From NCBI RefSeq assembly GCF_023168405.1, contig NZ_AP025285.1:1300001-1364000 (forward strand): DNA of 64,000 nt. The letters run 5' to 3'. The DNA comes from Leptogranulimonas caecicola (GTDB lineage Bacteria; Actinomycetota; Coriobacteriia; Coriobacteriales; Atopobiaceae). A model generated the notes under the pieces. The model saw only the letters and a list, made by a program, of their open reading frames with translations, did not search any database and was not told where the DNA came from. Positions 28,957 through 36,985 of the stretch are shown piece by piece. The position numbers and the translations under genes were made by a program. The number at the start of each line of letters is the position of its first letter. Position 1 is the first letter of the stretch.

Positions 28957-29253
28957 TCAAATCTGTAATTTCAGCTCTGGCAAATTCTTATACACGCCAT
29001 GCCTATGACCTACTCGCACCACTTCTATAAGCAAGACCTCATCTTTTAGGCGTCCAAGAATCCGATAGTTACCAGCTCGCCAACGCCAGCCAGCCTGCGT
29101 TCCTACCAGTTGCTTTCCTCCAATAACCACCCGAGGGTTATCGCAGTCTGCTAGGTTCTTTTGAATCCAGGCAAGGATCATTATTCGTTGCTTTTTAGGT
29201 ATTGCAGCCACTTCTTTAGCGGCTCGCTTTGTGAACTCTACTCTCCAGCTCAC
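28957..29253 (-). CDS. RelE/ParE-type toxin
   Basis: RelE-family toxins cleave mRNA in the ribosome or poison gyrase. The 98-residue protein begins MSWRVEFTKRAAKEVAAIPKK and has ILAWIQKNL, RWRAGNYRILGRLKDEVLLIEVVRVGHRHGVYKN, which matches the RelE fold with its basic strand (R-x-G-x-Y-R) and the terminal His-Arg-x-x-Val-Tyr. Its ATG overlaps the stop of the antitoxin gene (ATGA), the usual toxin-antitoxin order. The neighbours are gene fragments, so the module may stabilise this accessory island. Confidence 0.85.
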   Translation of the reverse strand: MSWRVEFTKRAAKEVAAIPKKQRIMILAWIQKNLADCDNPRVVIGGKQLVGTQAGWRWRAGNYRILGRLKDEVLLIEVVRVGHRHGVYKNLPELKLQI

Positions 29254-29477
29254 TCAGCCTTCATGGCCGCTTCGATGACCTCCTCCAAGGAATAGCGAGT
29301 GCCGTCATCTTCTGCCAAAGCATCTCGATAAGCCGCCAAATCACAAGCGTCTTCCACCGCCTCTAATACTGCTTCTCTTACTACCTCGGAGAAAGACTTT
29401 CCTTGCATGTCAGCATAAGCTTGTATCCACTGACGCTCTTCAGGCGCAAACCTAATTGCAGTGCTCGTCATGGCCAT
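29250..29477 (-). CDS. Antitoxin of the RelE/ParE pair (DUF6290-like)
   Basis: This 75-residue protein is the cognate antitoxin. It opens MAMTSTAIRFAPEERQWIQAYADMQGKSFSEVVREAVLE, a ribbon-helix-helix DNA-binding domain of the DUF6290/RelB type. It ends with a helical region that should bind the toxin. AGGAAGG lies six bases before the ATG at 29477; longer upstream frames lack a ribosome site. A perfect 13-base palindrome lies about 50 bases upstream and is a fitting autoregulatory operator. Confidence 0.82.
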   Translation of the reverse strand: MAMTSTAIRFAPEERQWIQAYADMQGKSFSEVVREAVLEAVEDACDLAAYRDALAEDDGTRYSLEEVIEAAMKAE

Positions 29478-29524
29478 AGCAAACCTTCCTAACCACGCTC
29501 TCTTAGTCAAAACGGTTGTACCCC

Positions 29525-29537
29525 ATCGTAGTACGAT
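29525..29537. promoter_or_regulatory. Candidate antitoxin operator palindrome
   Basis: ATCGTA-G-TACGAT lies about 50 bases upstream of the antitoxin start. Confidence 0.5.
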
Positions 29538-29894
29538 ATTGGCGCAACAGTATCTTTCCTCAAAGTTGCTGACTACTACAGCCTCGATCTCTTCGAGGCT
29601 TCCAATCCCGTCCATGATGCAGAAGACCCCCAAGACCGACTCGTACAAATCAAGGCAACCCAGGGAACCCGAGTCGCCTTGAACGAAGAGCCCAACTATT
29701 TAATTGTCCTTCTGATCCATCCCGACGGATCCTTCGAGGAGATCTGCAATGGCCCTGGCAAGCAAGTCTGGGAAGCTTGCGGCAAGCAGCAAAAGACAAG
29801 CCAACGACCTATCTCACTCACGAAGCTCCGAACTCTTAATCAATCCGTCCAAGCTGCCGAGAAAATCGCACCCCCCCCAGCTGCAGAAAGATAG
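29532..29894 (+). pseudogene. N-terminally truncated DUF6998-like (nuclease-fold) gene fragment
   Basis: The frame is open from a TAG at 29529 with no ATG until 29679, where a short ORF could start. The full frame reads as one conserved domain: VSFLKVADYYSLDLFEASNP, RLVQIKATQGTRVALNEEP, LIVLLIHPDGSFEEICNGPG and RPISLTKLRTLNQ. That pattern matches DUF6998 as I remember it, with a Q-I-K in the place of a PD-(D/E)XK nuclease motif. The front end is missing because the toxin-antitoxin promoter region replaces it, so this is probably a decayed gene. Confidence 0.5.
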
Positions 29895-29903
29895 TCCTTA
29901 GAG

Positions 29904-31062
29904 CTAATCCTCCTCTTCGATGGTTTCCTCCACAACCACATCCTCTTCTTCAATGACTTCCTCAGGCACTGGCTGAGCCTGAGGAAGTTTCTTCAACTGC
30001 TCTAGAAGCTTTCCTGATTCGGTCTTTAAGGTCACGTAAGTCATGGCGCCACTTACCACTCCCCCAACAAGAGGCACGACCTTACCAACAGCCTTTCCTA
30101 CACCAACTTTAGTTACCTTCACGCCTATTGCACGCAAAACCGATTTCAAAACTGGATACCACGTCGTCTTGGTGAGGGTGGCTTTAGCTACATTCTTAGC
30201 CACGGCCTTAGCTGCGTTGCTTGCAAAGGCTTTAAGACCAACAGCTGCTCCTCCAACACCTACCATGCAGCCAAAGAAGAACGCGAGTTTTGCCAGTGTC
30301 TCATCATCCGTCTCATCAACTTGATCAAGGAAATTATCCCAACCATAGGTATAGGCGAGCTTCTGCATGATGCGAAATGCATGGACATAATACTGGGTGA
30401 TATCAGCAGGAATGGTTCCCACCATAGCTAAACCACCAGGAAGCCCGGCAGCGAAGGACATCCAAGAAGATTTATTAGTCTCAAGGGCGATGGATTCACG
30501 TGCGATAGCATCAAGGATCTCAGGATCAACTCCTGCGACTGCGGGGCGCTCAGCAATAGCCAAGTCAATCTGTACTTGAGAGAGACCCTTCTTTGCCAGC
30601 TCCTGCTGCAAGAATGCCTCTCGCTCAATCTTGACGCCCCTCAACCTGATCGCAGAGAGCAAAAAACTTCTTAGCAAACGCCTCAGCTTCTTGATCCTGC
30701 CGATCCATGGCATCTTGAAGATCTCCATCCACAAAGGAGCCATCGGCAAATTCCTCTTCAGAATCCTCAATCTCGATATCCTCTAGAAGATCAGCCATTT
30801 CTTCATTGGCATCAGAGATGTCAGCAACATCATCTCTATCAAGATCTGCCTTATCAGGCTTCTCCGATCAAAACCCTTTAGAGAATCCCTCGATAGCGCC
30901 GTTTACGCCCGCACCGACCCTCTCTGCTGTCTCACCCAAAGCAGAACCAACCTCTGTGGCAATCTGGGTGGCACCTTCAGCCATTTGTGCAGCTCCATCC
31001 ACAAGACCTTGTACATCGATGTTCTTCAATGCTCCCCAGAGCGATTTTTTAGGATCTATCAT
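29904..31062 (-). pseudogene. EcsC-family-like gene broken by a stop codon and a frameshift
   Basis: The gene starts at an ATG at 31062 with AAGGAG upstream and reads MIDPKKSLWGALKNIDV on to an in-frame TGA at 30868. The same frame continues SEKPDKADLDRDDVADIS (acidic) to about 30640. There a C4 run at 30637-30640 shifts it; one base fewer restores VEGVKIEREAFLQQELAKKGL and the rest. The last part (LPGGLAMVGTIPADITQYYVHAFRIMQKLAYTYGW, then hydrophobic helices and an acidic EEED tail) is EcsC-like. I read it as one gene with two lesions. Alternatively the first 64 codons are a small gene of their own. Confidence 0.55.
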
Positions 31063-31288: not shown

Positions 31289-34076
31289 CTATGCCATTTG
31301 AGAATATAACTCTACGAGCCTTCGGGATACTTCATCCTCACTTGCATCCGGCCTTAGCCCCAACACCGCTAGCACTGCTGCGTCTAGTTGTTTGTGAGCC
31401 TGTACAAGACGGGTACGAAGAGGGAAAGTTTGGCGATCGTAGAGCTGGTCTAGGCTTTCCCCCGTATAACTATCCCTAGCTTTACGCACTTCCTTACCAG
31501 CTTCTATTACAGCAAGACGTTGATAATTTGATGTTGTCGGCAGCGGGAATGTGTTCCATACCAAGGTGCTTGCAAAACGACAATCGCTTTTAAGTCTTCC
31601 GCCCACAGTGTTTTGCCAATACATGAAGGCTGAAGAAGTTAAAACACTGAATGCATAGCCATCTGGATCGTCTAATACAAAGCATGCGTCGGTGGCAATT
31701 GCTCCATCAGTTATATAGGAAGCAGTGAAATAGTCCCTATTGCCTGAGAAATGACGAGGGATACAAACGTATTTAGTAGGTATGGGTCTAATTTCCCCAA
31801 ACAATTGAGGCCGTGATGACAGTTTTCTAGTTGTCACCTTTTTACTCTTTAAACGAAATGCTCGTACCTCGCTTAGCCTTTCGATAAGTATTGGAGACGC
31901 GGTTAAATCGGATTCAGGGGCATCTACAAGCCATAAGCACCAACGCTTTTTATTACCAATGAGCTCTTTAGCCCCTAAGCACCGACGCACGTATTTTGAA
32001 GCAATGGGATCGGCCATTGCCTCCTTGTAGTCCGTTTCGGATTTTAATTGCAGGAAGCCTCCATCAGCTGGCTTGGAACCAATAGCTGCTGGAGCTAAAG
32101 GTCCTAACGGTATACGGCGTGGAGTGATAAAAAAAGTTGGGGCGGCAATTAGATAAGGATTGATATTATTCGTTGTTTCTATATCGGTATCAGTGAATAA
32201 GACGGCATCTCTTTTTGATCGATCCATGCCAATAATTACTACATGAACTTGAGCTTGTGAACGAGCTTCGCTAGTCCATTTAAATGTGGTCCAAGCGAAC
32301 GAAATTCTCCAGCCCCTAGAGAAAAGAGGTTTGAAAAGCGCTGCCACTGGGGCACCCTGAGTAATGGAGTTGGTGGAAACAAAGACAAAGCTCCCCCCCC
32401 CCCGTTGCTTTAGAATCGTAATAGTCGGCTGCCTTTTTATACCAAGCTGTCACATAGTCTAGGTAACCGTTGTAATCATCGCCCCAGACTGTTTCCATGT
32501 CAGCTGTTTGAGTTTCCGTTTTTCCATCCTGTCCCACAAAAGGTGGATTGCCTAAGACGTAAGAACAATCATTAGCCTTAATAACTGCATTCCAGTCTAG
32601 TCTCAGTGCATTACCGCATGTGATACTTGGTATCGATGTGAGGGGAAGAAACTCGAGTTCGGATTTGATTATTTCTTGAGTGGCTTCCATCATCTGGGAT
32701 TCGGCGATCCATAGGGCGGTCTTGGCAACAGAGACTGCAAAATCATTGATTTCGATACCGTGCATTTGATTGATGGAAACATGGATGGGGCTGAGGTTTT
32801 CTGTAAGTTCGAAGCCCATTTGCCCAAAACCTGCAAGGTTTTCAAGCAATCGATTCTCAAGGCGTCTAAGAGATAGATAGGTCTCTGTCAGAAAGTTGCC
32901 TGATCCACATGCGGGGTCAAGCACCTTGATGGATGCAAGTTTGTTTCTGAAAGCAAGGAGACGACGGTAACGTACTTTCTCCGTCTTGAACGCCTCGATC
33001 TCTTGCAACTCGGCTCGCAGAGCGTTTAGGAAGAGGGGGTCGATTACCTTATGAATGTTTTCCAAAGAGGTGTAATGCATGCCTCTCTCATGGCGCGTTT
33101 CGGGATTGAGGGTTGATTCGAAAACGGCACCGAAAATAGTGGGCGAGATGTCTGCCCAATTGAATTGACGAGATGCCTCTTGAAGCAAAATAAAACGAAG
33201 GTCCGTCGTGAATTGAGGAATGATGATGCTTTTGTCTGCGAACAGCCCACCATTAACATAGGGAAAAGCCGATAGCTGCTCACTGAGATAGGGATCGCGT
33301 TCTTCTTCCGGTGTGTCAAGCACCTCAAAAAGCCGTATAAGAGCAGATCGACAATCCTGTACATGATAGCTGTTTAGATAGTCATGAAACGCCAGGTGAG
33401 ATTGCAGGAGACCGGCATCTTCGGCATAAAGTAGAAACACGAGTCTCACTATGAGGATGTTGAGAGACTCATGCTCTCGCGGGTCGGTGTCTAAGTGCAG
33501 GTATTGATCAGCAAAACCGTCATAGAGCCTGGCGACGATCTCTCCAGCTTCCACCGAGAGGCGTTTCTCTTTTTCAAGGCGGCTGTGTTCTTTGCTGGTA
33601 AATATATCGAAGAGTTGTAGATTGTCTGCCAACTCATCCAAGCTTACAGAGACATAGCTCTCCTCAGGATTCTCATCGTTTAAGTCATAGAAGCGGATTT
33701 CATCAAAGTTAGATGTAATGATCCAGCGAGGACTGATGGAGTGAGGCAGATTGTCGGCATACCATTTGCCTTGTTCGTAAGGAGTGACCATGCGGGGAAA
33801 ATTGTGTTCAGTAAGACCCCGCTTTTCCTTTTTGTCGAGGTCAACCCCTCGGCTTTTCTGCTCGATCAGAATGCCTTTATCCTCGATGAAGGCATCGGCC
33901 TTGCGGCCGCGGATTTTTCTTTGAAAGTCAATAACCTTTGTAGGTTCGGGAACTTCTAATACCTCTTGCAGTAGTTCAATCCAAAAAGAGCGATCTTCCT
34001 GTTCTTCGGTTCCCGCCGCTTGTTTCCAGCGCTTGATGAATTTTTGCGCAGCTTGTTTCTGTCTGCTGGTAGCCAC
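31289..34076 (-). pseudogene. MmeI-like single-chain restriction-modification enzyme, phase-variable (OFF as sequenced)
   Basis: This is a type IIL R-M-S protein: nuclease, methyltransferase and target recognition in one chain. The start is a GTG at 34076 with TTTGGAGG upstream. Nuclease: residues 61-74 with D61, E72, K74 (ADAF, then IEQKS). Methyltransferase: DPACGSGNF (387-395) and NPPF (510-513). Target recognition follows in the second frame. At codon 558 a C11 tract (G11 in the gene) shifts the frame; 10 G would join YYDSKATGGG to SFVFVSTNSITQGAP. Without correction the chain ends after about 20 odd residues. ON length is about 928 residues, close to MmeI (919). Confidence 0.85.
32393..32403. 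repeat. Homopolymer C11 tract in the MmeI-like gene
   Basis: Eleven C in a row, inside the coding region. Such tracts change length by slippage; 10 or 13 restores the frame, while 11 and 12 do not. Confidence 0.9.
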
Positions 34077-34408
34077 TAGTGCCTCCAAATAAAATGCTCC
34101 TAAATTAGAAGGGGCTGTGATCTTTTGGATCAAGATGACGTGCGAGCAGTATGCGACCAATGTCTTGTTAGATTCACTATAGGCGAGCTTTGACCGCATC
34201 CATCGCGAGATGATCCGCATTGAAATCTGCCACAGCAAAAAATAACCCAAAGTCATGGCAGCACCAGAATGCCCCAAAATACATGAACCGTTTTACGTCA
34301 GCTACAGATGCGATAGCTACGGTTGCGGAGGAGTGATGGTGACAATGAAATCTGGGTTTTTTTCGCTGAGAACCTGCTAGGCCCTACATTCTTACTCGAC
34401 GAGACTTT
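34077..34408. other. Upstream region of the MmeI-like gene, no gene recognised
   Basis: The same frame stays open upstream to 34277 on the minus strand but has no ribosome site, so I treat it as non-coding. No other clear signal is seen. Confidence 0.4.
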
Positions 34409-35215: not shown

Positions 35216-36985
35216 ATGAAAAGAAAGCCCATTGTTTATATCTTGTTTGGGGTGCTTATTGCATCAATTACACTGCTCAGTGGAATCACGTCTGCAATTG
35301 CGAGACCATCCTCAACACCTAAACCGGTGGATGTGAATGTAGAGCGGTTCTCGTTTCAAAACTTAAATCATGAGGATACGGATCGCATCTACTATACAGA
35401 TCGTTTCTATCTTGCGATGACCTGGGATGCTTCGGCTAGTGGAGATGGGCTTCATGAGGGCGATTACTTTGATATGGCCCTCCCCGATCAAATGGTGTTT
35501 CCCTCTGAAAGCACCGCCAGGGATTTCAACATCTACGGAGAAGATGGCACGACAGTGATTGCCAAAGCCCATGTAGAGCCGGGGGCCACTGGCGGAGGAA
35601 CTGTGCGGGTCACCTTCACCAATTGGGTGGAGGGGCGAAGGAATGTGCGTGGATCGATCTATCTTGCAGCCCGTTTTGATATTACCAAGCTGAAGTTGGA
35701 TGAGAAGAACACCATCCATGCCACGGTGGCCGGAAAGGTTATCGAAAAAAACATTGATGTTGCAGGCCCCCGAGATATTCAGAACGAAGTGCTTGCAAAA
35801 TGGGGAAGCCCTGATGCAAACAACCCAGAGGCTCACTGGACTGTGCGCATCAACCACGATAAGCAAAACCTTACCGGTGCGAAGATCAGCGACCGCTTAA
35901 GCGGAGGTACCGGCTCTGAAAAGTACATAGCCGATAGCTTTATTCTTCGCAAGGTGGAGATGAATGCGAGAGGTCACGTCACCCGAGTATTGGAAACGGT
36001 TGACACTGCAGGGCGGCTCACCATCTCACCTGATGGGAGGTCCTATTCTGTGGATCTTGGTGACCTGAATGGTGACTCTTATCAACTTAATTACCGCACC
36101 ACTTATACTCGCGGTACAGTACTGAGGAATGAAGTAAATCTTGCTTCTTCTGAAAAGAGCGATACCAGGAGCTCCACGGTGCGCACGGCAGATTCTGGAG
36201 GCCAGGGGCAAGGTGAGCTTGGTGGAAAGATTCGCATTATCAAGACCTCCTCAGAAGATGACTCATTGAGGCTTCCTGGCGCAGTCTTCGAGGTACAAAG
36301 GCCAGATGGCACTACTTTTGAACTAACTACTGGTGAAGATGGCACGATTGTCTCGGGAATTATTACTCCCGGCACGTACAAGGTAAGGGAGAAGTCGGCG
36401 CCGGTAGGCTATGAGAAAAGTGACAAGGTCTACGAGGTGCAGGTACAAGGCGAGGGGCTCGAGGCCTCGGTGACGGTGACAAACGATCCGGTGCGCACTG
36501 CGGTTTCTGTAACCAAGGTGTGGAAAGGACGAATCGCGGAATCGGTGACGATGCATCTCTATGCAGATGGCCAAGATACCGGCAAAACGCTGACGTTATC
36601 TGGAGTGAATGCCTGGAAAGGCAACTTTGGCGGGCTGAGGAAGTTTGCCGCAGATGGTCACGAGATTGCGTATACAGTGACCGAGGATCCTGTAGAGGGC
36701 TATGACTCAGAGATTGCCGGTGATGCCACTGAGGGATTTACGGTCACCAATACACTTCGAGAAGTGCCAAAGGAAGATCCTGAAAAGCCGGAGGATCCAA
36801 AGAAGCCCGATACGAAGGAGCTGGGATCAAAGAAGACTCCGCCGGTGCGTACTCGAGGCGTCCCGCTGAAGGCTGCGGCCATTCCTCGTACAGGAGATGA
36901 AGGCACACTGATGCCAGCTGTGCTTGTGGGGCTGGCAACGCTGGTAGTAGGTGCGTCGGCGGTAGTGATGGTCAGGCAAAAGTAG
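35216..36985 (+). CDS. Sortase-anchored surface adhesin with SpaA and Cna-B domains
   Basis: This 589-residue protein is built for the cell surface. A signal peptide covers residues about 1-35. Residues about 36-330 form a collagen-adhesin-like N-terminal region (NHEDTDRIYYTDRFYLAMTWDA; GTVRVTFTNWVEG). A SpaA/prealbumin-like domain (KIRIIKTSSEDDSLRLPGAVFEVQ) and a Cna-B domain (VSVTKVWKGR, VTMHLYADGQ) follow; both usually form isopeptide bonds. The tail is Lys/Pro-rich, then IPRTGDEG (an LPXTG variant), a hydrophobic helix and a basic end. GGAGG lies ten bases before the ATG. Confidence 0.88.
   Translation: MKRKPIVYILFGVLIASITLLSGITSAIARPSSTPKPVDVNVERFSFQNLNHEDTDRIYYTDRFYLAMTWDASASGDGLHEGDYFDMALPDQMVFPSESTARDFNIYGEDGTTVIAKAHVEPGATGGGTVRVTFTNWVEGRRNVRGSIYLAARFDITKLKLDEKNTIHATVAGKVIEKNIDVAGPRDIQNEVLAKWGSPDANNPEAHWTVRINHDKQNLTGAKISDRLSGGTGSEKYIADSFILRKVEMNARGHVTRVLETVDTAGRLTISPDGRSYSVDLGDLNGDSYQLNYRTTYTRGTVLRNEVNLASSEKSDTRSSTVRTADSGGQGQGELGGKIRIIKTSSEDDSLRLPGAVFEVQRPDGTTFELTTGEDGTIVSGIITPGTYKVREKSAPVGYEKSDKVYEVQVQGEGLEASVTVTNDPVRTAVSVTKVWKGRIAESVTMHLYADGQDTGKTLTLSGVNAWKGNFGGLRKFAADGHEIAYTVTEDPVEGYDSEIAGDATEGFTVTNTLREVPKEDPEKPEDPKKPDTKELGSKKTPPVRTRGVPLKAAAIPRTGDEGTLMPAVLVGLATLVVGASAVVMVRQK

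Follow-up and report, generated by a model that had tools for sequence, protein, structure and literature searches.

A G11 tract probably renders an MmeI-type restriction-modification gene of Leptogranulimonas caecicola phase-variable, and repeats recur in its homologues

The window considered here, by which we mean the whole stretch of DNA that was analysed, comprises 64 kb (57% GC) at positions 1,300,001-1,364,000 of the Leptogranulimonas caecicola genome, a single contig of 2,001,235 bp. Its minus strand carries a restriction-modification (R-M) gene that passes from one reading frame to another at a homopolymer, and whose parts are as follows.

31289..34076, minus strand: the whole MmeI-type (Type IIL) R-M gene, from the GTG start at 34076 to the stop at 31289, interrupted solely by the frame offset at the tract.
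34082..34086 (approximate), minus strand: GGAGG, resembling a ribosome-binding site and taken straight from the sequence, ahead of the GTG.
32404..34076, minus strand: the N half, with a PD-(D/E)XK-type nuclease region, a helical spacer and a methyltransferase bearing DPACGSGNF and NPPF.
32393..32403, minus strand: the G11 homopolymer, which reads as C11 on the plus strand and is proposed as a switch by slippage.
31289..32392, minus strand: the C half, with the end of the methyltransferase (FVSTNSITQG ... FKW), the target recognition domain and a C-terminal helical domain.

The GGAGG is spaced 5 nt from the GTG. Both halves of the gene are open, and the 11-base run, which makes up 0.4% of the gene's length, is the only lesion between them. 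As sequenced, the tract of 11 gives a product of 586 aa; tracts of 10 or 13 are in frame and give 928 or 929 aa, respectively, and tracts of 12 and 14 are out of frame, as 11 is. A long simple repeat thus lies within the R-M reading frame, and its length sets that frame. A preliminary description of this DNA had placed an 11-C homopolymer at these exact coordinates, had held that ten Cs would restore a 928-residue enzyme, and had read the gene as encoding an MmeI-like R-M enzyme with its two halves joined at the tract by a single-base offset; the frame count and the domains bear it out.

Five MmeI Pfam domains follow one another in order over the two frames. The N half (P0001, 557 aa to the tract) matched MmeI_N, MmeI_hel and positions 6-188 of MmeI_Mtase, and the C half (P0002, 367 aa) matched positions 194-258 of MmeI_Mtase, MmeI_TRD and MmeI_C. 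The same continuity is seen against the MmeI PDB chain 5hr4, matched at 10-527 by the N half and at 534-901 by the C half, and against one PADLOC Type IIG model of 912 positions, matched at 6-533 and 538-907. These domains form one chain only with the tract in frame. The motifs present are D61...E72-Q-K74 of the nuclease, DPACGSGNF at 387 and NPPF at 510, although in the phmmer alignment to 5hr4 the columns of the nuclease motif are not in register. Enzymes of the MmeI family (Type IIL) unite nuclease, helical spacer, gamma-class adenine methyltransferase, target recognition domain and C-terminal domain in a single chain; they methylate one strand only and cut about 20/18 nt downstream of their site.

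The break lies past NPPF (residue 510), as had been claimed when it was described as following the methyltransferase motifs, but it falls within the methyltransferase domain, with the conserved FVSTNSI strand immediately after it, rather than cleanly behind that domain. In MmeI, Trp570 helps to box the flipped adenine (PMC4833311); in the alignment its equivalent sits in the C half, past the break. The 11-G product has neither the target recognition domain nor the end of the methyltransferase domain. The earlier proposal that switching acts on the recognition half and alters methylation specificity is not supported, since the OFF product is without the methyltransferase end as well as the whole recognition domain; methylation and restriction should therefore go together, and from the predicted protein OFF should mean their joint loss and no re-aiming of the enzyme. 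Two other arrangements were considered. A specificity switch of the Helicobacter pylori JHP1272 type was rejected, as it does not fit a break in the methyltransferase domain and an OFF fragment devoid of a recognition domain, and a split enzyme of two subunits is unlikely, as each of the 53 intact relatives consists of one chain and the break runs through the methyltransferase fold.

As we read the alignment, the specificity residues are, in MmeI numbering, R751 with D773, A774 with R810 and K806 with D808, which under the MmeI rules (PMC4833311) predict G at position 3, R at position 4 and G at position 6; K645 probably specifies C at position 2. The ON enzyme is thus predicted to recognise six bases, the last four being G-R-A-G, and to methylate the A at position 5. 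With this prediction the R-M gene can be put to a direct test by long-read methylation data.

Could the tract be a chance run? For the gene, at 46% GC, the expected number of G/C runs of 11 or more under a first-order model is 0.0003. Pattern searches of the 2.0 Mb genome found two such runs, the R-M tract and a G12 at 142576-142587, where the whole-genome composition model allows about 2.5-3; composition would predict about 125 runs of 8 or more, far above the 11 present. Since the genome could hold 2.5-3 such runs, run length alone is weak evidence; the strong evidence is the position of the tract, together with its recurrence in relatives. In the intact relatives the loop at the tract site is shorter and free of repeats.

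The G12 (locus L001, 1501-1512; also L148) is the one G/C run of the genome that exceeds the R-M tract in length. It is located some 10 codons into a gene whose product, a surface protein, has Lipoprotein_Ltp and Listeria-Bacteroides repeat domains. As sequenced this gene is out of frame, and so may be a second phase-variable locus, although it has an in-frame TAA further on. Besides the R-M tract, the window has a single G/C run of 8 or more, a C8 at 29871-29878, between the minus-strand ORFs 29250-29648 and 29904-30770.

Relatives were sought with the N half as query in 140 genomes of the family, 398 of the class, 396 of the phylum and 9, 138 and 67 of three further families, with one genome per species, some genomes shared between the search sets, and extra regions fetched. 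This survey of Actinomycetota yielded 87 distinct homologous loci, 53 of them full and uninterrupted by our criterion. Counting as a repeat any G/C run of at least 8 or any dinucleotide array inside the gene, six loci carry one, the gene described here included:

R-M gene of the window: G11, OFF.
Genome G171: G12, ON (in frame), in the same loop as the tract of the window gene.
Genome G166: G14, OFF, between motif I and GIEINDFA.
Genome G111: G9, OFF, between motif I and GIEINDFA.
Genome G278: C8, OFF, in the nuclease half, with an additional in-frame TAG; a weak case.
Slackia piriformis: (CT)11, OFF, just before NPPF.

Among the five other homologues, then, one repeat is in the same loop and four are elsewhere in the gene. 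In the OFF homologues a change of one or two repeat units rejoins the frames, and the ratio of five OFF to one ON, window gene included, is compatible with random frames, in which two of three would be OFF. At the same loci there are six repeats in 207 kb of gene against two in 251 kb of flanks. Relative to background rates from 12 genomes, tallied by hand and a lower bound for one of them, MmeI genes hold three G/C runs of 11 or more where at least 0.14 are expected (P at least about 0.0004; with the discovery gene left out, at least 0.009) and four of 9 or more where at least 0.72 are expected (P at least 0.006; with the discovery gene left out, at least 0.036), figures that rest on few cases and on a threshold set partly after the data had been seen.

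On the tree the repeat-bearing genes are scattered and most have nearest relatives without a repeat. Those of G166 and G171 are each other's nearest relatives, with tracts at different places, and those of G111 and G278 lie close together but differ in both tract and place. Near relatives thus have no repeat, or a different tract or place; therefore, the repeats arose several times, and this repeated origin is our main support for phase variation over assembly error. On balance, we favour the view that MmeI-family (Type IIL) genes of Coriobacteriia have recurrently been made phase-variable defence genes by independently gained repeats that differ in unit and in place, across nuclease and methyltransferase regions.

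Several features of these genomes deserve mention in their own right. The G171 genome has unusually many G/C runs of 11-12, on many contigs, which suggests a larger set of contingency loci. In G111 (C1:795853-795882) a G14 run is followed directly by C16, a 30-base stretch resembling a perfect hairpin that could be biological or an assembly artefact. In G353 (C2, about 420800-441400) an MmeI homologue is divided into N and C parts (L086 and L087), both on one strand; the intervening stretch of about 20 kb holds CBASS-like (SMODS, AGS_C), McrBC, Type III-like restriction and ABC-3C genes.

Taken together, these observations make it very probable, judging from sequence and comparison, that the MmeI-type R-M gene is phase-variable and that tract length sets both of its activities ON or OFF together. 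The single lesion falls exactly at the tract, both halves are open, and one MmeI chain runs from end to end; the nuclease, SAM-binding and catalytic motifs are intact and the specificity residues are combinations known in the MmeI family (PMC4833311); and G tracts of such a length are known to slip, a G11 tract in another gut actinobacterium giving mixtures of G11 and G12 in culture (PMC9187656). Phase variation had been claimed for the gene from the outset, and the comparison, with five homologues bearing other repeats and one of these in frame, supports it.

We propose that cells of the strain would alternate between full enzyme and dead fragment. With 10 or 13 Gs the full enzyme of 928 or 929 aa would be made, methylating one adenine and cutting unmethylated DNA; with 11, 12 or 14 Gs translation would stop soon past the tract, to leave a fragment that would have neither the methyltransferase end nor the recognition domain. 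Because one chain with one recognition domain would serve both nuclease and methylase, the OFF state would leave no unmatched nuclease, and switching ON would depend on methylation outpacing cutting. The likely benefit would be bet-hedging of phage defence against DNA uptake, with differences in methylation from cell to cell as a consequence.

Three other explanations have to be weighed. The true tract may be 10 (or 13), miscounted in sequencing or assembly, in which case the enzyme would be intact and the tract long but unremarkable. Homopolymer counts are error-prone, and a G11 recorded in Bifidobacterium breve proved to be mostly G12 in culture (PMC9187656). However, a counting error does not make the long, slippery tract, nor does it readily account for four unrelated assemblies in which a repeat, in one case a CT array, puts the homologue out of frame, and we consider a miscount improbable.

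It is also quite improbable, in our judgement, that the gene is a decaying pseudogene, an acquired R-M gene inactivated by a frameshift. The stretch from 31 to 36 kb, in which it lies, is a low-GC patch (0.45-0.48), and no homologue was found in the other genome of the genus examined (G001), which together suggest lateral acquisition. Four homologues in the class (L041, L056, L085 and L141) are broken without repeats, and this, like the low-GC patch, speaks for a pseudogene. Yet the single lesion of the present gene sits exactly in an 11-base run between open halves with intact motifs, and decay does not produce slippery tracts, which recur in the relatives. Polymerases and ribosomes can slip on long G runs, and such slippage could yield some full-length enzyme at any tract length, tuning dose instead of switching ON and OFF; the (CT)11 in the same role in S. 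piriformis favours slippage of DNA, and we hold dose tuning to be very improbable.

The closest named homologues of the R-M gene are from Coriobacteriia (Slackia piriformis, Ellagibacter, and MAGs labelled Eggerthella, Eggerthellales and Coriobacteriia). No nearly identical copy with a different tract length turned up in viral contigs, by DNA pattern or by protein, or in plasmids, where the only matches were distant and partial, to methyltransferase genes of lactobacilli and staphylococci. The neighbours comprise a DUF6290/ParD-like protein, uncharacterised ORFs and a collagen-binding-type surface protein, and no partner methylase was found among those scanned. The surface protein (35216-36985; Big_8, Collagen_bind, SpaA, Cna_B) adjoins the R-M gene, and its start lies in the low-GC patch.

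That a single actinobacterial class has six MmeI homologues with repeats suggests an under-counting of phase-variable defence among gut commensals, and such genes, where annotated as pseudogenes, may be OFF alleles. If recurrent switching is real, cells living side by side in the gut would be unlike in methylome and in their resistance to phage, and the lineage would be one in which single-chain R-M enzymes repeatedly come under contingency switching. Published surveys of DNA methyltransferases that can switch have dealt with Type I and Type III systems (PMC7394358). The literature searched held no phase-variable one-chain Type IIG/IIL enzyme from outside the epsilonproteobacteria, and no description of MmeI-family genes recurrently gaining repeats in Coriobacteriia was found in that literature (chiefly non-subscription papers, REBASE aside).

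MmeI itself (PDB 5hr4, PMC4833311) has the same domain order over its full length, and its specificity residues can be aligned with those of the R-M gene. Phase variation of MmeI is not described in that paper; in the gene described here the loop is enlarged by the tract. Two relatives in switching come from actinobacteria. The phage-defence adenine methyltransferase PglX of Streptomyces coelicolor is likewise switched by a G tract, which changes from 8 to 7 or more at high frequency, with PglX-linked switching at 10^-2 to 10^-4 (PMC4365076), but PglX is part of the multi-gene Pgl system and has no fused nuclease; the R-M protein matches PglX models only weakly and in part. In the gut actinobacterium B. 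breve an intragenic G10/G11 tract splits the first gene of a sortase-pilus locus, and length mixtures have been measured there, the G11 tract being 37% G11 and 60% G12 in culture (PMC9187656), although that switch controls pili and not R-M.

Two further parallels are single-chain enzymes. Cj0031c of Campylobacter jejuni (PMC4889913) is also a single-chain R-M enzyme split between conserved domains by a polyG tract, ON at G9 and OFF at G10, and many of its homologues have no tract; methylation, phage restriction and length mixtures were measured, and its authors argued for joint loss of both activities in the OFF state. It differs from our enzyme in its length (1243 aa), its TaqI_C-type recognition region and its phylum. 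JHP1272 / HP1353-HP1354 of H. pylori (PMC3936762) is a Type IIG/IIL-like enzyme with homopolymer switches, whose authors note its likeness to the MmeI recognition region and suggest assignment to Type IIL. It has two tracts, the second of which adds a C-terminal domain and so changes specificity, whereas the present gene has one tract and an extra C-terminal domain of that type was not found at it. Phase-variable Type IIG enzymes are, then, already known (PMC4889913, PMC3936762), and it is with them that the R-M gene of L. caecicola belongs.
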